This document shows, one piece after another, positions 5,350 to 13,230 of a stretch of DNA of 64,000 nt. Origin of the DNA: Synechococcus sp. MW101C3 (GTDB lineage Bacteria > Cyanobacteriota > Cyanobacteriia > PCC-6307 > Cyanobiaceae). The position numbers and the translations under genes are program-made. Below the pieces are notes generated by a model, which saw only the letters and a program-made list of their open reading frames with translations, did no database searches and was not told the origin of the DNA. How positions within the stretch are numbered: the first letter of the stretch is position 1; each line of letters opens with the position of its first letter. The stretch spans positions 1 to 64,000 of the forward strand of contig NZ_NQKX01000009.1 of assembly GCF_002252635.1 (NCBI RefSeq), in the 5' to 3' direction.

Positions 5350-5871
5350 TCAATCCCTTGGTTGATCTTTCCAACGCTGGCTGTCAAGACTATCCAGATC
5401 CTTCGTGAAAATGACACGGTCTTCACCTTCACCGTCGTAGCCCACAGCCACGGGCACGCCGCCGACCTTGTGGTCGGAGTCGAGGAGAGAGAAGCCAAGG
5501 CGACGATGGAAGGCAATCGAGTTGCGATTGACAGGAGCGGTGACGCATCGAGCAGTGCGACAGCCAAGCGAGGCGGCCGTGGCAAAGAAATGCTCGTAGA
5601 GGCGGCGTCCTAACCCTTCTCCACGTCGCGCGGGGTGCACGCCAATGAAGTGGATGTAGGCCTGGTCGGGAAAGGTCTGCGAAACGAACCCGATGAGGAA
5701 CCCAACGATCTGTCCATCCGCTACGGCGGTGAAGCTGGTGGAGCGGAAGTGAACGAAGAAGAGCTTGGGGAGCATGGCGGCCATCGGCCGACCACCCCAC
5801 CATTCATCAACGATCAAGATGATCGGTTGGTAGTCGTCCTGCTCTACATGTCTGATGGCTATGTCCGCCAC
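5350..5871 (-). CDS. GNAT-family N-acetyltransferase
   Basis: 173 residues from the GTG at 5871, chosen because GAGGAGG lies 4-5 bases upstream and the protein then starts ADIAIRHVEQDDY, a typical GNAT beginning. Longer frames run back into the attC site. The acetyl-CoA loop is GVHPARRGEGLGRRLYEHF (Q/RxxGxG/A), followed by NRNSIAFHRRLGF. Substrate unknown; GNATs are frequent integron-cassette cargo and may acetylate drugs, proteins or polyamines. It is the first gene of a likely two-gene cassette with the glycosyltransferase. Confidence 0.9.
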   Translation of the reverse strand: MADIAIRHVEQDDYQPIILIVDEWWGGRPMAAMLPKLFFVHFRSTSFTAVADGQIVGFLIGFVSQTFPDQAYIHFIGVHPARRGEGLGRRLYEHFFATAASLGCRTARCVTAPVNRNSIAFHRRLGFSLLDSDHKVGGVPVAVGYDGEGEDRVIFTKDLDSLDSQRWKDQPRD

Positions 5872-5895
5872 AGCCTCCTCCCTAGCAAACAGCAC

Positions 5896-5979
5896 GCCCA
5901 ACGCCAAGATCAGAAGCGGGCTGATTCTTAAGCAGAGCGATAATCTGCCGCTTCCGTCTTCTGTATCTTGATGTTAGGA
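5896..5979 (-). other. attC-like recombination site g (type B, 84 bp)
   Basis: Read on the minus strand it begins TCCTAAC (5979-5973) and ends GTTGGGC (5902-5896). Inside, CAAGAT-a-CAGAAG-a-CGG pairs with CCG-CTTCTG-ATCTTG, leaving two single unpaired A residues in the 5' arm, the extrahelical bases expected of attC. The first core departs from RYYYAAC at its outermost base (T). The site lies directly after the SIR2-like gene and before the GNAT gene. Its stem is closely related in sequence to the site at 12145-12230. Confidence 0.85.
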
Positions 5980-5988
5980 GGAAATAGT

Positions 5989-7104
5989 TCATTTGCCTAG
6001 CATTCTACTCAAAGCCATCTCGACGTCATCCCAGTCATCCAGCCAGACAATGCGGATTCCGAGATGAGAGACAGAGGATTCAATCCAGCTCTCAGCATGC
6101 TTTCGATCTCCTGGTGTCGTGCGAGGGCGAGTTCGTAGCCACCAATGTCGCGTAGAATCTCCTCTGTGATTTGAATCAATCGCAAGCAATTCACTTTGTC
6201 GAACTGAGTGTGCCCACGAAAGCCATCGTCTCATATTTGGATCCGAAAGAGAGACTCCAATGAAGACCAAGTGAGATGTAGTTGCTGCTGACAAAAAAGT
6301 GGATGACTGCCATGAATACGCTTGATTCGACAGTGCTAGGTACTGCGACTCAGAAAAAACAAGCTTGTCCTCGCTAGTAAACGGCTGGCGGGGACCTTGC
6401 AAGATACCTGGAACCGGGAGTAAACCATGGCAATAGACGTAGGGAATTCTCGTTGGGCGGATGTTGGATGTAGATCGTGTCACAACATCCATGGTTTTAC
6501 GGAGAGCCCCTGGCTCAGGGCTTGCACCGAGAAGCAATCGAGTCGAATGATTGATCAGCCCAAACAGCAGCGGCTCTGCGTTGAACGACAATACGCTGGA
6601 GGGTGCCAATTCTGTCCCAAAGAGGGGAGATACCACATTTGCAATTGCCGACGCTGAACATGCACTAAAATGAGCAGCTCGGATGGGTGTAAATTCATTC
6701 CAGCAATCAAAGTCGATTTCCCCAGGGTTTTTTGCACTTAGGATTCTCGAGGTGGTTGACCATTCCCGATCACTGAGTTTCGATCTCAAGTTTCGGTAGA
6801 GTTCCTCAGCAAGCCACAGAGCAAAGCTATTATCATCCAATAGCAATCGATCCTGAGCGGCCTGAATTAATGCATCTGCTGCAGACTCCTTGCGCAGAAT
6901 CGATATCAGCTTCGCTGGCTCTTCCACTGGATTAGTTCCAGGAGAGTGAACCCATGCTTCAAATAATGTCTCGACCAGACCATCCCAAGTTGGGAAGGCA
7001 CCACGGGAAGTACCTGCGCCTACACAAAGGCTCCATCCAGCTGTACTTGCAGCCGAGCGAAGCACAGAGGCAATGTCCGTTGCGGTCAAGCCAGGTTTCG
7101 CCAT
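5989..7104 (-). CDS. SIR2-like domain protein
   Basis: 371 residues, ATG start. The N-terminus carries the SIR2 NAD-binding signature LCVGAGTSRG (residues 27-36). Further along are LSFNAEPLL (Asn175), YCHGLLP (His226, in the position of the sirtuin catalytic His), and FIGVSLSDPNMRRWL (281-295), the usual end of SIR2-like proteins in defence systems. Several anti-phage systems use SIR2 domains to hydrolyse NAD+; whether this one does is inference. There is no second effector or sensor domain that I recognise in the middle region. It is a single-gene cassette lying between attC sites f and g. Confidence 0.82.
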   Translation of the reverse strand: MAKPGLTATDIASVLRSAASTAGWSLCVGAGTSRGAFPTWDGLVETLFEAWVHSPGTNPVEEPAKLISILRKESAADALIQAAQDRLLLDDNSFALWLAEELYRNLRSKLSDREWSTTSRILSAKNPGEIDFDCWNEFTPIRAAHFSACSASAIANVVSPLFGTELAPSSVLSFNAEPLLFGLINHSTRLLLGASPEPGALRKTMDVVTRSTSNIRPTRIPYVYCHGLLPVPGILQGPRQPFTSEDKLVFSESQYLALSNQAYSWQSSTFLSAATTSHLVFIGVSLSDPNMRRWLSWAHSVRQSELLAIDSNHRGDSTRHWWLRTRPRTTPGDRKHAESWIESSVSHLGIRIVWLDDWDDVEMALSRMLGK

Positions 7105-7133
7105 AGTCGCTCGCTTTGATTGATTTTATATCC

Positions 7134-7223
7134 TCCAGACGCTGCCCCTGAGTGGCAGGCTAGAAGTGTAGAGCGCAGGAAGGAAATCGTTGGCGGCCTG
7201 TCCACTCGAGGGGCTTGTTAGCC
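7134..7223 (-). other. attC-like site f (type A, 90 bp) with mutated core
   Basis: Minus strand: begins GGCTAAC (7223-7217) and ends GTCTGGA (7140-7134) instead of GTTRRRY. The stem is intact: CCCCT-c-G-AGTGG-a-CAGGC pairs with GCCTG-CCACT-C-AGGGG, with extrahelical C and A. It is nearly identical to sites c and e. The wHTH gene stop (7229-7231) lies 5 bases before it. The altered core removes the GTT at the cleavage position, so the junction with the SIR2 cassette is probably no longer a good integrase substrate. Confidence 0.85.
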
Positions 7224-7228
7224 ATGTT

Positions 7229-8263
7229 CTATGCATCATGATGCATTGCACGTAGAATCATCTTCATCACTTCTTTATTGGCATTAAGATGTTGCAAGGC
7301 AATATTGGGATGGGCAAGGGGAAAAACTCGGAAGATCTCGTCAGCGAATGCTTGACCGATAGACCTAACCCCTTCAAAATCAAATACCACGACTTTAAAC
7401 TTATCAACTCGAGCAAGCAATCTTTTGGCTTGAGATCTTGAGACGAGATTGTTATCACCGTACTGAGCCAACTCCACTGGAACAACTGTCTTTGTAAATC
7501 CGTAGTCTTCGCCAGTGGAAAAACGGTCAAACACTTTCTTGGTAGTTCGCGACGTGTGGTTATTCAGTTTCATGGTTACGAATGTTCCTGCGCCGTCTTG
7601 CTTTGCCTGAAAGATCCAGTCTTCCTTCTTTCCAAAGTGATGCGAGAAGATGACTTCTCCTGATAGAATTGCAAAATCATCAAACATTCTAGAGCTAAAA
7701 AAGATTCCTTCTCCCGAGTGGCGCGATGGATCTGTTGTCAGCTTTCCCTTGGCAAGCTCAAGAACTGCATGTCGTTCGTCGAGAAGCCCTAGAGCGTGCT
7801 GAATCTTTTTAAAGATTCCAACTCCATTATCGAGAATCGCGATCTCTGTTTCGGCAGCGGTCTTTGAGATATGCACACTAATATGTGTGCCGCTGGAATG
7901 GTCGATGGCGTTGTTAAAAATCTCGGTGAAGCCGTAATACCAGATTGATTTCACATTTTCAGCCATAGGCCCAAGCTTGGGAGCGACTTCCCTATCCCAG
8001 ACGATATCCTCAGCTAGCTGTGTGTCTATTTCGAAGCTCAAGTCACATTCTACAAGTGGCGCAAGTGCATAGCGCTTGTTACGAGTGGTTCCAGTTTCCG
8101 TAACTGCACCCTCCTCAATTAAATGCTGAATGTGCTTATGGATAGCTTGGCGAGAGCATTCAAACTTTGCCATCGCAATCTTTACGATGTCACTTGGATG
8201 CTCCTTTACGTTGGCAAGGATGAAGTTTCTTACCGCTTCCCCGCGGCCGCGGATTTTCGACAC
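7229..8263 (-). CDS. wHTH - GHKL ATPase - STAS-like (DUF4325) regulator
   Basis: 344 residues from a GTG at 8263. Residues 1-70 form a winged helix (CSRQAIHKHIQHLIEEGAV). Residues 75-235 are a GHKL ATPase: N box EIFNNAIDHS (114-123), G1 box LDNGVGIF (144-151), and SGEGIFFSS (183-191) as the lid/G2 element. Residues about 255-335 are an STAS-like DUF4325 domain (VVVFDFEGVRSIGQAFADEIFRV). Combining an anti-sigma-type kinase fold, its STAS partner and a DNA-binding domain in one chain suggests a self-contained transcription switch. Direct repeats lie just upstream. It is a single-gene cassette. Confidence 0.85.
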   Translation of the reverse strand: MSKIRGRGEAVRNFILANVKEHPSDIVKIAMAKFECSRQAIHKHIQHLIEEGAVTETGTTRNKRYALAPLVECDLSFEIDTQLAEDIVWDREVAPKLGPMAENVKSIWYYGFTEIFNNAIDHSSGTHISVHISKTAAETEIAILDNGVGIFKKIQHALGLLDERHAVLELAKGKLTTDPSRHSGEGIFFSSRMFDDFAILSGEVIFSHHFGKKEDWIFQAKQDGAGTFVTMKLNNHTSRTTKKVFDRFSTGEDYGFTKTVVPVELAQYGDNNLVSRSQAKRLLARVDKFKVVVFDFEGVRSIGQAFADEIFRVFPLAHPNIALQHLNANKEVMKMILRAMHHDA

Positions 8264-8269
8264 GAACCT

Positions 8270-8321
8270 TTGTCAACCAGCTCAACTCCTATTGTCAACC
8301 TAGGCATGCCCTTTGTCAACC
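8270..8321 (-). repeat. Three tandem GGTTGACAA repeats upstream of the wHTH gene
   Basis: On the minus strand GGTTGACAA occurs at 8321-8313, 8300-8292 and 8278-8270, start-to-start spacings of 21 and 22 bases, about two helical turns. The last copy ends 6 bases before the GTG start. They fill the whole space between attC site e and the gene. The pattern suits an operator bound by a dimeric or oligomeric winged-helix protein, possibly the product of the adjacent gene. TTGACA inside each repeat could also serve as a -35 box. Confidence 0.75.
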
Positions 8322-8330
8322 CTGCGATCT

Positions 8331-8422
8331 GGCTAACGCTGCCCCTGAGTGGCAGGCATGGAGCATGTGGTGGCGCAGCTGAGGGTAAAAGGTGGCCTGC
8401 CCACTCGAGGGGCTTGTTAGAC
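8331..8422 (-). other. attC-like site e (type A, 92 bp)
   Basis: Minus strand: GTCTAAC (8422-8416) to GTTAGCC (8337-8331). Stem CCCCT-c-G-AGTGG-g-CAGGC with GCCTG-CCACT-C-AGGGG; extrahelical C and G sit at the same two places as in sites c and f. The TAA stop of the PIN gene (8419-8417) lies inside the first core, a common feature of integron cassettes. Confidence 0.9.
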
Positions 8423-9427
8423 GGGCCTGCGCGGCACAGGCGCTCTTATGCTAAATGGTATCGTCGGAGTGCCAGTAGTAAATGTGCAGCCTTTAAGGAA
8501 AACTGCTCCACCCTTCATGCGGTCACCTTCCGCAGTGTAGAGTCGAATTGTATTCAGAGCCAACTCACTAATATTCAGATCCCCTGACAACATACACTCG
8601 CCCGATACTCTGGCCACACCTTCATCAACACTCCTCCCTTGCAGGTCCTCTCCACCAAGAACCTTAAACTCCAGAGTGAAGACGGCTGCAGTGGCATTTG
8701 GACGCTCCGTTGCATAAAGCTCCACGGATGAGCCAATTCGATGACATGCTTGCCATCCTTGATCAGAAGTAATCGATTCCATTTCAGGCACAACAGCTTC
8801 GGTAAGGGCTTGAGCAATCTCCTCATCATCGACGTGAGGAAGCTGCGATTGAATCGACCTAAGAACGTCTGAGATAGTTGAAAACAGCCGAACTCTTCCA
8901 CCACCTTCCTCTGCCAGTTCGGGTGCAAGAATTGGGCGCTTAGCCTGCCTGTCTTGAAAGTCTCCATCATCTGTGATAAGCAGACAATTCTGATTTACAT
9001 CCAAGATGCACTCCCATAGAATGCAGTCTCTAAACTGCTCAGACGTCCTTGCTGGAGGGCGATGATCAAGAACTCGATCTAGTGCATTCCTCAGATGCTT
9101 CTCAAGGACCTCGACTCGAAGGACTAAATCGCTGATTTCACTCAGCCTGGCCTCGGCAGATTGTCGAAAGGAATCCTCAGAAGGGAAAGAAATGCCTGGC
9201 CGACTCCCAGTAAGTTGCTGGACTATTCCCATGCTTCGCTCAATATTTCTCACTGCATCAGTACCTGCCCGTTCCACACCAGCCAGAATCTCTCTATATG
9301 TAGTTTCAGGAAGCAGGAGTTTTCCGCCAACTTGTCGAACTGCATATAGAAAGGCAACTCCTGAAGCAGTTCTTAAGAGCCGCTCCTTGATCCAAACGTT
9401 CGTGTCTAGTGCAAAGATCATGGTCAT
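8417..9427 (-). CDS. PIN-domain nuclease-like protein (DUF4935 type)
   Basis: 336 residues. The N-terminal ~165 residues form a PIN domain: FALDTNVW (Asp8), LLPETTYREIL (Glu41/Glu46), EQFRDCILWECIL (Asp134) and LLITDDGDF (Asp153/Asp154), giving a full acidic set for a Mg-dependent RNase. The rest (about 170-336) is an extra C-terminal domain I do not recognise; it looks beta-rich (ELYATERPNATAAVFTLEFKVLG). No antitoxin-sized gene accompanies it in the cassette, unlike VapC pairs. The start is the ATG at 9427, just after attC site d; MTMIFALD leaves almost no leader before the catalytic Asp. Confidence 0.85.
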   Translation of the reverse strand: MTMIFALDTNVWIKERLLRTASGVAFLYAVRQVGGKLLLPETTYREILAGVERAGTDAVRNIERSMGIVQQLTGSRPGISFPSEDSFRQSAEARLSEISDLVLRVEVLEKHLRNALDRVLDHRPPARTSEQFRDCILWECILDVNQNCLLITDDGDFQDRQAKRPILAPELAEEGGGRVRLFSTISDVLRSIQSQLPHVDDEEIAQALTEAVVPEMESITSDQGWQACHRIGSSVELYATERPNATAAVFTLEFKVLGGEDLQGRSVDEGVARVSGECMLSGDLNISELALNTIRLYTAEGDRMKGGAVFLKGCTFTTGTPTIPFSIRAPVPRRPV

Positions 9428-9431
9428 CTCC

Positions 9432-9494
9432 GTCTAACGCCAAGTTGACCTGCATGTTGCGAAGCAGCTTGTCAGGTTGAAGTTGATGTTAGGT
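9432..9494 (-). other. attC-like site d (type C, 63 bp)
   Basis: Minus strand: ACCTAAC (9494-9488) to GTTAGAC (9438-9432). It is the shortest site. The arms CAACTT-c-AACCTG-a-CA and TGCAGGTCAACTTG pair with two mismatches and again two single extrahelical bases. The sequence is unrelated to types A and B except for the ends and fold. The 3' end of the PD-(D/E)XK gene (stop at 9472-9474) overlaps it. Confidence 0.8.
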
Positions 9495-10590
9495 GCTCTT
9501 CAACCTGCCTAAATAGCTTGATACATTCTTCAGTAGACTCTCTGACGGCGATTAATGCATCTTTAAACGTACAGTCGGCGAAACCCTGACTGCCAGGAGG
9601 AAATTCGATCTTTTTTGAAAATGAATAGTAGGCAGAGGTTGTAGTTCGTGGCGGATTCAGTCGCCAGCCAAAGTGCTTTAACTGAAGCAGCTCAAAGAGA
9701 CGTGGAATGCTGCCATCAAGCGCCATTCGTGCTGTAGCGGACTGCTGCTTGCGACGTCCTGATTCATCATATCCACTTTCGAATTGTGCCTTTATTGTGG
9801 CGCCTTGAACTTGAATTCCCAAGTCAATGATTTCGCTCTCGATGGTTAGCTTCGGGATTTTACAAGGATTCTTGATATCAATAAGTGCAATACCTCTCGT
9901 TTCAGTTATAAGGCAGTGAGCGCATTCGAAATTCAGGCTTTCGGCAATACGCTGGAAGAAGGCCTTTTGCAGGATCGTTTCCAGCCCATTTTGCGCAATA
10001 TATAATGCTGATTTAGACTGTCCGACAGATTTTTGCTTTGCTAACTTTGATGAACTCCCATCAGAGAAGACTTTCGGAAACATTGTGTGATCAGAGAGAA
10101 ACTCGTTTTTTATAGTTACTAGCTTGTCTAGATTTTCAATGTAGTCCAGAATAATCTCACTCTTGGTTTGAACTCGCTTCAAGGAACTGAGGACACTGTC
10201 GTATTCAAGCATCATCCAATCCTGTCTTGAAGGCGCTTCGCCTAATAGACTCAGGAATAGTTTCATGATCTTACGATCAGGAAACATTTCTGTCAACATA
10301 GTTGAATACTTGCTCAGCTGATCGCTATGCTCCGAAATTTTTATCTTGTTTTCGATTGCAATAACCGCATCATCATATTCAAGTAAGATGTCAATGCCAT
10401 TGCATTCGGCAACACTTGCGCGCAGTTGCCCTCTAACATTAACTTGGGTCCAGCTAGAAATGATCTGCAGTTTGTCACTCTCTGAGATGTACTGATTTGA
10501 ATCGGAAAAGAGCCAAGCCAATGCAGCTGAGTGACACTTCTCAATTGCGGCTTGCTGGAGAAACGAAAAAAAACTCATTGCTTCAGACAT
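9472..10590 (-). CDS. PD-(D/E)XK nuclease superfamily protein
   Basis: 372 residues from the ATG at 10590, 13 bases after attC site c; a longer GTG start at 10605 would lie inside the site. The start of the domain has EKCHSAALAWLF (17-28), like the E-x-x-H-S-x-x-x-x-W-L motif of PDDEXK_4-type nucleases. The catalytic core is GIDILLEYDDAVIAIENKI with Asp68, Glu80 and Lys82. These proteins cut DNA and occur in restriction and other defence settings. No methylase or helicase partner is present. The C-terminal 200 residues have no motif I can name. Codon use is clearly AT-rich. Confidence 0.85.
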   Translation of the reverse strand: MSEAMSFFSFLQQAAIEKCHSAALAWLFSDSNQYISESDKLQIISSWTQVNVRGQLRASVAECNGIDILLEYDDAVIAIENKIKISEHSDQLSKYSTMLTEMFPDRKIMKLFLSLLGEAPSRQDWMMLEYDSVLSSLKRVQTKSEIILDYIENLDKLVTIKNEFLSDHTMFPKVFSDGSSSKLAKQKSVGQSKSALYIAQNGLETILQKAFFQRIAESLNFECAHCLITETRGIALIDIKNPCKIPKLTIESEIIDLGIQVQGATIKAQFESGYDESGRRKQQSATARMALDGSIPRLFELLQLKHFGWRLNPPRTTTSAYYSFSKKIEFPPGSQGFADCTFKDALIAVRESTEECIKLFRQVEEHLTSTST

Positions 10591-10603
10591 GTAAAGACTG
10601 TCC

Positions 10604-10695
10604 ACCTAACGCTGCCCCTGAGTGGCAGGCAGGGAGCCTGTGGTTGCCGTTCGAAACTATTATGGCGGCCTGTCCACTCCAGGGGCTTGTTAGGC
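10604..10695 (-). other. attC-like site c (type A, 92 bp)
   Basis: Minus strand: GCCTAAC (10695-10689) to GTTAGGT (10610-10604). The stem CCCCT-g-G-AGTGG-a-CAGGC pairs with GCCTG-CCACT-C-AGGGG: 16 base pairs with two extrahelical bases. The HNH-nucleotidyltransferase gene ends 18 bases before it. Confidence 0.9.
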
Positions 10696-10712
10696 CTCGC
10701 TGCGCGATGCTG

Positions 10713-12113
10713 CTATGGATAGGCCTGCGTAAGGTTGTCATGTTTCAGCCTCAACGCTGCGAACTCGCGTTCGGAGGCAACGCCTATGTGCGGCTCGCCG
10801 TACCTTTTGCGAGTCTTCTGCTCGACTGATGACTCAAATAGCCTAAGCTTTGCGGCATCGATGGGCTCTTCGTATACGACTAGAATGTCGATATCTCGAT
10901 ACGATTTTCTCCTAATGAATGAGCCAAAGACGAACACTCGGACTCGGTGTGGAGGAACTGACTCTTGCACTATCCGCTTGATTCCCAATAGCCGAGACTC
11001 GCGGTCGGCTCTGAGCAGAAAGTTCAAATACTGATCGCCCTTGTGATTAATGGCACCCATAAACTCGCCGAGCATGAAGAGGCCAATGCCGCGATCGACG
11101 CACTGATGCTTTGCTGAGTCGGAGTATTTCCCAGCAGGACTGGAGCAAATGATCACATCAACAGCAGGATCAACTTCCAGGACTCGATCTAGGGTGTAGT
11201 CTGTAAAGTAGTATGTATTCGTTACAAATACCTTGAGTGTTCTGCCGTCGCGGAGTTCAACAAGCATTGTGCCGCGATTCAACTCTTGCAGAGTTGCGAT
11301 TGCACTGTGGTCGGAAAGAAATCTCTCGATGTATGTCTTGACTGTGTTGTAGCGGAACTCAAGTTCCTCTTGTGCAACTACCTCGGGCGCCTTCGACTCA
11401 ATGCCAAGTCGAGTCTTGACAAAGTGATCAAAGCTTCTAGGAAATAGCTTGTAGTCATTGACTTTCTGATCGGTCAGGCAGTTGTCTTGAAATGCATCGG
11501 CATGGATCTTGTACTCAAGCATCTTCCGGTAAACATCCCATGGGTACGTGAAGTTCTGCTTGTTACTCTCGATGAGGGCAATGATTCTTTGGTTGTTTGG
11601 CAGAATAGTATCCAGGCAACGCTTCTTCCAAATCTTGACTCCATCGCCGCCGAGGCCGCCCAAGACATTGGCAGAGTAAGGGCCGCATTCGCGAAAGAGT
11701 GCTGCGTTCTCTTCAAGCAGGTCATTTACCTCCGCAAGAAGAGCCTTTTCATCTCGGATAGTTGGAATAGAGAAGAGAGATCTGATCTTTCCAGCATGAG
11801 TAGATTTCCAGCTTTGCATTTCCTCCACGGAGAAGACCTTCTCAAGTTCGTCGACTACCTTGTGACATTCAAGGCAAAGCATTATGAGGTTGGTTATCCC
11901 TTCTTTGTCGATGTAACCCGCGAGTTCGTGGTCGCTTCGAGGGCCGGAAGTGCCGTGTCCAATTATGTGGGCGACGTTTGCGATGCTGACGGATTCATCT
12001 GCAACGGCGATAAAGAGGGGCTTATTGCAGTTTGGGTTCTGGCAGAACCCGCCACACTGCGCCCAAAGTTGGCGCGCGGTGTTGAGTGGGACTGATTTTC
12101 TGGTATTGGACAT
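10713..12113 (-). CDS. HNH endonuclease - nucleotidyltransferase fusion protein
   Basis: 466 residues from the ATG at 12113 (a TTG at 12143 is possible but adjoins attC site b). Residues 15-90 are an HNH domain with Cys24, Cys29, AHI (His49), Asn75 and LCLECH (Cys80, Cys83, His84). Residues about 250-370 contain DVIICSSPAGKYSDSAKHQC and GIGLFMLGEFMGAIN, loosely like the second half of an Mrr-type restriction fold. Residues 390-466 are a MNT/Pol-beta-type nucleotidyltransferase: FVFGSFIRRKS and RDIDILVVY (Asp407, Asp409). A nuclease joined to a nucleotidyltransferase suggests a defence or toxin role; the activity is unknown. Confidence 0.82.
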   Translation of the reverse strand: MSNTRKSVPLNTARQLWAQCGGFCQNPNCNKPLFIAVADESVSIANVAHIIGHGTSGPRSDHELAGYIDKEGITNLIMLCLECHKVVDELEKVFSVEEMQSWKSTHAGKIRSLFSIPTIRDEKALLAEVNDLLEENAALFRECGPYSANVLGGLGGDGVKIWKKRCLDTILPNNQRIIALIESNKQNFTYPWDVYRKMLEYKIHADAFQDNCLTDQKVNDYKLFPRSFDHFVKTRLGIESKAPEVVAQEELEFRYNTVKTYIERFLSDHSAIATLQELNRGTMLVELRDGRTLKVFVTNTYYFTDYTLDRVLEVDPAVDVIICSSPAGKYSDSAKHQCVDRGIGLFMLGEFMGAINHKGDQYLNFLLRADRESRLLGIKRIVQESVPPHRVRVFVFGSFIRRKSYRDIDILVVYEEPIDAAKLRLFESSVEQKTRKRYGEPHIGVASEREFAALRLKHDNLTQAYP

Positions 12114-12144
12114 TAAGCAGGCAGTAGAAAGCTGTGTTCGCAAG

Positions 12145-12230
12145 GCCTAACGCTCCAAATCAGAAGCGGGCAGGGATCTCGGCGTAGAAACTAACCATTG
12201 CTCCCGTCTTCTGAATTTGGGATGTTAGGC
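12145..12230 (-). other. attC-like site b (type B, 86 bp)
   Basis: Minus strand: GCCTAAC (12230-12224) to GTTAGGC (12151-12145). The stem CCAAAT-t-CAGAAG-a-CGGG pairs with CCCG-CTTCTG-ATTTGG, with extrahelical T and A. The HEPN gene ends 25 bases before it. Confidence 0.9.
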
Positions 12231-12255
12231 GTCGTCAAGCAATATAACCAATAAA

Positions 12256-13230
12256 TCAGAAAGAATCCTCTAAGAGCTGGCGCTTGGGCAGCGAGGTAAT
12301 TCGATATATGAGAAGATTCTTTAGGACCGTATCAAGATCGTTCACTTCTTCTTGAGTTACGGCTTGGCCGCCGTGAACTATTCGGTGCCTCTGCTTTAAT
12401 GACCGTTGGACTATCTCAATAGACCGACAACCCTCTTCACTATCTTGGTAGACTTGCGTGATTTCTTGTCTAATATTTTGCCATATCGATTTGGTCTTTA
12501 GCCTGTCTAACCCTCCAATTAAAGCATACTTTTTTTCATTTACTTTATCAGGCAAATCTGTTGACCCTGACGGAGGATTGTAGGTTTTTACCTCGCCAAT
12601 AAACTTATTAATTAGATGAATTTCCCATTCATCTCTCATTTCAGTGGGGCTCAAGCATTCGATCGAAGTAATTAGCATTGTGAATCGTGACTTAAGGTTA
12701 GCCTGGAGTGTTGAGCTACGGTAGAGATCTAATGAAAGACTAAGCCTCTTATCTGATTCTGGAATGATTCTAGTGGCAATATCGAGACCTGCCCGAAGCC
12801 CATCTAGAACGATCGGAGCGCCCACAATTGATTCACCGCCCAGCATTCTTGTATGAATAAACCCATATGGAATTTTGTAAATGTGACTAGATGGCTTTCC
12901 CGCAATGCTTTTAAAACTGCAACCATCCATAACATTGGAGTGGCGTTGGATCTCATCAATCCTTAGCTCCGCTTCAGTTGTTATACCTCTATCAAGCATT
13001 AGCCAGTGAAATGCAGTCTTTAGCTTGTCTAGATAGGCAATAGCCTCCTCTTCTGTTGAAAAACCAGATACTGTCAAGATATTGAGATTATCCTTCTCAC
13101 ATTTAAGCTCAACCTCAAATTCCCAGAATTCTATACTGGCTACACCTTCAAACTCTGTATAGGTTAGAGAATGAAATAGAAGGACCAGCCTACAGGCGTA
13201 CATCGGATTTTGGCCGAAGCGGGTCTTCAC
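12256..13230 (-). CDS. ApeA-like HEPN domain protein
   Basis: 324 residues from a GTG at 13230, with GGGAG about 10 bases upstream and within 26 bases of the cassette's first core. The C-terminal third fits an ApeA-like HEPN domain: a long helix YRSSTLQANLKSRFTMLITS with IECLSP, then the motif RHRIVHGG (Arg281...His286), which matches the HEPN RNase signature R-x(4-6)-H. The N-terminal ~200 residues are of the kind that precede HEPN in such proteins but I cannot name a domain. HEPN proteins often act as RNases in phage defence and toxin systems. It is the promoter-proximal gene of the array. Confidence 0.8.
   Translation of the reverse strand: MKTRFGQNPMYACRLVLLFHSLTYTEFEGVASIEFWEFEVELKCEKDNLNILTVSGFSTEEEAIAYLDKLKTAFHWLMLDRGITTEAELRIDEIQRHSNVMDGCSFKSIAGKPSSHIYKIPYGFIHTRMLGGESIVGAPIVLDGLRAGLDIATRIIPESDKRLSLSLDLYRSSTLQANLKSRFTMLITSIECLSPTEMRDEWEIHLINKFIGEVKTYNPPSGSTDLPDKVNEKKYALIGGLDRLKTKSIWQNIRQEITQVYQDSEEGCRSIEIVQRSLKQRHRIVHGGQAVTQEEVNDLDTVLKNLLIYRITSLPKRQLLEDSF

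Follow-up and report, generated by a model that had tools for sequence, protein, structure and literature searches.

A single-chain wHTH-GHKL-STAS regulator on a Synechococcus integron cassette, with a repeat array embedded in its own predicted promoter

Bacterial immunity has co-opted GHKL-STAS pairs in the form of systems with two or three genes (EMBO J 2026, PMC13373217). In the CapKS system the modules are divided between two proteins, CapK (HTH-STAS-GHKL) and CapS (STAS-wHTH) (Chambers et al. 2026, EMBO J, PMC13373217). The phosphorylated Ser54 of CapS is absolutely conserved, the TTAA half-sites of CapS lie across promoter elements, a -10 among them, and the assembly on DNA is cooperative (PMC13373217). 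Both CapK/CapS and VapKSC, the latter built from a GHKL kinase, a small STAS protein and the VapC toxin as effector, detect ssDNA and regulate immune operons (PMC13373217). We found no literature on a single-polypeptide wHTH-GHKL-DUF4325 regulator, and, among the titles listed, no publication linking a TTGACAA repeat to a DUF4325-type gene.

Such a regulator is encoded in the 64,000-nucleotide stretch of the Synechococcus sp. MW101C3 genome analysed here (the window). The minus-strand gene at 7229..8263 starts with GTG (8263-8261), and its 344-aa product, as delineated by the open reading frame, Pfam, AlphaFold2 (AF2), Foldseek and homologues, joins a winged HTH, a GHKL ATPase and a STAS-like DUF4325 domain in one chain. 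The N-terminal winged HTH (aa 1-70; 8054..8263, minus strand), with the recognition-helix region SRQAIHKHI, was assigned from the AF2 secondary structure, MarR/ArsR profile matches and the alignment; the Pfam match of the HTH was weak and under the curated cut-off. The GHKL ATPase (aa ~85-234; 7562..8011, minus strand) was assigned from the alignment, a structural match to SpoIIAB and Pfam, where HATPase_c and HATPase_c_2 matched aa 112-232 with E values of 3e-6 and 1e-5, respectively. The STAS-like domain with its IGQAFADE motif (aa 278-332; 7268..7432, minus strand) was evident from the alignment and from Pfam (DUF4325, PF14213; E 1e-13, 51.2 bits against a curated cut-off of 23). The AF2 model, computed with 46 homologues as input, had a pLDDT of 82 and displayed the three modules as expected, and Foldseek matched it to SpoIIAB, RsbS, RsbV/RsbW and MarR-type wHTH structures, the partner-switch entries being 1l0o, 1th8, 6jhk and 6m36. 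The nucleotide-binding residues of the GHKL fold, namely E114, N117, N118 and H122 of the N-box, D145-x-G-x-G149 of G1 (G147, G149), K172-G-K..H182 of the lid, G184-x-G186 of G2, and T227, were invariant across the 46 homologues, giving the signature of a GHKL anti-sigma-type ATPase/kinase. An earlier note on this DNA had proposed that one polypeptide combines a DNA-binding domain, an anti-sigma-like ATPase and a STAS-like domain, and the Pfam, AF2 and Foldseek results bear this out.

The same note had equated these domains with the modules of partner switching. The GHKL and STAS modules are indeed present, but the phosphorylatable serine of classic STAS proteins is replaced by Gln-Ala. At the phospho-serine position the protein carries Gln304/Ala305, with Gln304 conserved in 44 and Ala305 in 43 of the 46 homologues (Ser in 2), and the serine of VapS-like small proteins aligns with Gln304. 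Because the target serine of CapK-type kinases is thus replaced, phosphorylation of the STAS domain is not expected; the binding or hydrolysis of ATP, together with conformation, would probably drive the switch. The regulator shares the GHKL and STAS folds with SpoIIAB/SpoIIAA and RsbW/RsbV, as detected by Foldseek, but differs from them in having no known sigma factor partner, a fused DNA-binding domain and no phospho-serine. VapKSC likewise comprises a GHKL kinase and a small STAS protein (PMC13373217), whereas its components are separate chains, it has no wHTH and its effector is the VapC toxin. In four cyanobacterial loci (L136, L139, L141 and L143) a GHKL-type or unannotated gene, a standalone DUF4325 gene and a PIN gene occur together, resembling vapKSC toxin-antitoxin operons.

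VapKSC and CapKS are the closest known systems. As in CapKS, the regulator possesses an HTH, a SpoIIAB-like GHKL domain, a STAS domain and putative sites overlapping the predicted promoter, and it would likewise form an autoregulated switch that assembles cooperatively on DNA. However, CapKS consists of two genes beside an immune operon while the regulator is a single gene with no conserved partner; CapS has the phosphorylated Ser54 where the regulator has Gln/Ala; and CapS recognises single narrow or wide palindromes, in contrast to a phased direct array of 2-5 copies. Judged by its sequence the regulator looks like a fused CapKS, but it lacks two defining CapKS features and is therefore not classed as CapKS.

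The array lies directly in front of the gene. Exact copies of GGTTGACAA occur on the minus strand at 8313-8321, 8292-8300 and 8270-8278, with start-to-start spacings of 21 bp (8313 to 8292) and 22 bp (8292 to 8270), and 6 bp separate the last copy from the GTG start; an exact-match search found no further copy without mismatch in the window. A generic promoter scan identified TTGACA-17-GACAAT as the sole promoter-like site in the scanned region (10 of 12 matches; 0.0 in shuffles). Its two hexamers fall within the repeats: TTGACA (8319-8314), the predicted -35, belongs to putative operator copy 1 (GGTTGACAA, 8313..8321), and GACAAT (8296-8291), the predicted -10, which is a weak one, belongs to putative operator copy 2 (GGTTGACAAT, 8291..8300), with a 17-bp spacer between them. 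From the position of the -10 we infer a transcript start at about 8284, which would place putative operator copy 3 (GGTTGACAA, 8270..8278) at approximately +7 to +15. The repeats thus look like promoter elements and putative operators at once, beyond mere upstream operators. Since the putative sites overlap the -35, the -10 and +7, repression, not activation, is the most likely mode of autoregulation. The copy number, the 21-22 spacing and the 6-base distance given in the earlier note were reproduced when re-measured at exact positions. Its proposal of an autoregulated cassette promoter can be made more specific, in that the gene is an integron cassette and the repeats appear to supply the -35 and -10, while the autoregulation itself is strongly suggested by the sequence.

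Homologues were collected from whole genomes, GTDB contigs and IMG/VR; most shared 55-66% protein identity and they came from many phyla. At least two copies of TTKWCAA within 130 bp were present in 83 of 84 homologous upstream regions and in 42 of 31,924 control windows taken from these loci, where the motif was derived from the very upstream regions counted, the control windows and a motif-free offset test (below) are independent of it, and close relatives are over-represented because the genome contig scan took the best 80 of 258 relatives. The earlier note had made its proposal depend on close homologues also having the repeats, and they do, in the same phase. The arrays contained 2-5 copies, and 133 of 157 gaps between copies were 21 or 22 bp long, with near random bases and almost no information in between. 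In the three-copy arrays having only 21/22-bp gaps, the 5' gap was 21 bp in 36 of 40 and the 3' gap 22 bp in 39 of 40 (Fisher P 9e-17); a 21-bp gap leaves exactly 17 bp between the TTGACA in copy 1 and the GACAAT that follows in copy 2. Moreover, among 47 (21,22) triples the central base was A in all 47 at copy 1 and at copy 2 but in only 35 at copy 3, a pattern that fits copies 1 and 2 doubling as the -35 and -10; the eighth base was T in 43 of 47 at copy 2 and in 23 of 47 at copy 3. A cyanobacterial subgroup (L027, L028, L048, L056 and L057) displayed a 12,22 spacing instead of 21,22; in these arrays the promoter would fall on copies 2 and 3 and have an 18-bp spacer.

TTGACA matches the -35 consensus and was picked up by the promoter scan, so the repeats could be no more than a multi-start or strong constitutive promoter for RNA polymerase, the protein regulating something else. 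We consider this very unlikely. The consensus of the repeat, approximately AAGGTTGACAATA, carries information past the promoter hexamers (AAGG before, T after). In addition, the repeat is near-palindromic (GGTTGACAATA), with the core TTG-A/T-CAA in which TTG-A-CAA forms an odd palindrome, and copy 3, which is conserved although it lies downstream, is sometimes TTGTCAA; this fits a palindromic operator but not a -35. Divergent homologues, too, keep the spacing with other repeat sequences. When 22 of them (≤50% identity) were analysed by the motif-free test, requiring 8 of 9 matches, an offset of 21 was recorded in 6 loci and of 22 in 9, while every other offset from 12 to 45 was seen in at most 2 loci. 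The repeat is GTTTACAAAA in L162, TTTAKGTTAC in L167, AGTAGCAAGT in L175, ATGTTTACAT in L168 and TATAGTTAAA/TAAAGTTAAA in L172/L173; L172, L173 and L179 retain the geometry with a different repeat. In L172 a promoter read by eye (TTTACA-17-TATAGT) has its -10 overlapping the first copy. The recognition helices vary in the loci with altered repeats according to the alignment, and such a joint change of repeat and helix would look like co-evolution of a protein and its operator.

Direct repeats of 21-22 bp near a wHTH gene are also the geometry of plasmid iterons, and an array of this kind immediately upstream of such a gene could in principle be an origin or partition site for a wHTH initiator. 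That reading is scarcely credible here, as Pfam detected no Rep-type domain in the protein, a tblastn search of 72,556 plasmid records recovered no homologue, the loci reside in chromosomal contigs beside housekeeping genes and the overlap of the repeats with the promoter is strict. A tblastn search of phage records and an Rfam search also gave no match, and viral scans in which individual distant proteins served as queries recovered nothing beyond the queries.

The regulator gene is an integron cassette, since it is flanked by attC sites and the homology to two related units ends at the attC crossovers. Its 5' boundary is the core GTTAGCC (8337-8331) of the attC of the preceding cassette (8331..8422, minus strand; hairpin z -3.3, break of homology), and its own attC (7134..7223, minus strand; hairpin) has the R' core GTCTGG, which is GTTAGG in L006, whose homology ends at 7139; this 3' boundary looks decayed. 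The L006 unit aligns to 8337-7139 with 97% identical DNA and the L007 unit to 8341-7135 with 77%; the homology runs from crossover to crossover, and outside it only attC copies are common with the window. Because of the decayed R' core, the regulator and the adjacent SIR2-like gene may now be mobile as one cassette. Further attC sites folding as hairpins were located at 5896-5979, 10604-10695 and 12145-12230; the strict RYYYAAC/GTTRRRY consensus retrieved one site only and relaxed cores were needed. The integron-like array extends over 5350-13230 and comprises GNAT, SIR2-like, regulator, PIN, PD-(D/E)XK (PDC-S26-like) and HNH + nucleotidyltransferase genes and a weak HEPN-like gene, a set with a flavour of defence. 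No intact integron integrase scored over the cut-off (TIGR02249) in the genome of the window, fragments or interrupted pieces being present on other contigs. Four of these broken integrase-like pieces (L131, L132, L133 and L134, on contigs C4 and C2) miss the middle or contain in-frame stops, which suggests that the cassette array was left by a decayed integron.

As for the other homologues, 10 of 83 carried a GTTAG core that precedes the array by 8-44 nt, with 1.1 expected, and therefore a minority is recognisable as cassettes; a structural attC search up- and downstream of the homologues gave results near chance. The protein tree required 15 phylum changes against a minimum of 7 and grouped the window protein with two close cyanobacterial relatives, the next nearest being proteobacterial proteins, a pattern consistent with horizontal transfer. 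Like other integron cassettes, the regulator cassette is a discrete mobile unit of one ORF and an attC. Integron cassettes are generally promoterless (PMC11014356), whereas the regulator cassette seems to carry an autoregulated promoter with it.

We looked for other targets of the regulator. Beyond the regulator gene, a spaced repeat pair was almost absent from 28 genomes, and off-target pairs turned up twice, at L104 in G100 and in G122:C136, and were judged incidental; L104, on contig C32, is a second TTGACAA array, which is unlinked to a homologue and overlaps an unrelated ORF at its end. Single AGGTTGACAAT copies in 61 genomes were at background level, with no enrichment elsewhere. Since the array is practically unique per genome, we infer pure autoregulation of the regulator gene.

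An alternative is that the protein acts as a single-chain CapKS which represses its own promoter together with a read-through SIR2-like cassette (5989-7104) and releases both upon DNA damage. The ssDNA-sensing CapK/CapS and VapKSC have the same domains; in the window, the gene that follows in the same orientation is SIR2-like according to Pfam, with a decayed attC in between, and the adjoining cassettes encode PIN, PD-(D/E)XK and HNH-type proteins, of which the last two match defence models. However, an all-against-all comparison of the flanking ORFs revealed no neighbour or operon partner conserved beyond groups of 3-4 loci, and the gene downstream of the homologues had the opposite orientation in 60 cases against 35 with the same one. 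In addition, 75 neighbouring ORFs were mostly unrelated housekeeping genes with few and scattered PADLOC defence matches. We therefore regard control of a defence cassette as unlikely; the reading of the homologue loci as defence islands was rejected owing to the few PADLOC matches in these neighbours.

The reading we favour, and consider likely, is that of a self-contained, horizontally spread autoregulator whose wHTH acts on the promoter-embedded array under the gating of GHKL and STAS. The wHTH would bind the phased near-palindromic sites, which, being two helical turns apart, would lie on one face of the DNA; on account of this, a cooperative protein assembly could span the entire promoter and silence the regulator gene. 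The GHKL and C-terminal STAS-like domains would form the switch, with an ATP- or ligand-dependent contact between them, in cis or between protomers, stabilising or breaking the DNA-bound assembly, comparable to CapK and CapS acting in trans. A regulator having itself as the only target brings no obvious benefit, and an output is thus missing from this account. More tentatively, with the odds somewhat against it, the homologues could make up a widespread kind of solitary mobile regulator not described before. In such a regulator a single chain would unite the DNA-binding repressor, the GHKL ATPase and the STAS antagonist, would act on its own promoter alone via the -35/-10 array and without STAS serine phosphorylation, and would serve as sensor, switch and perhaps effector.

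The regulator very probably controls itself. It adds to the GHKL-STAS proteins a relative that consists of one polypeptide and occurs in at least 7 phyla, for which a likely DNA target site has been identified family-wide. The absence of the phospho-serine raises the question of whether a partner switch can operate on the ATP state alone, and a cassette with what appears to be its own regulated promoter bears on how distal integron cassettes are expressed.
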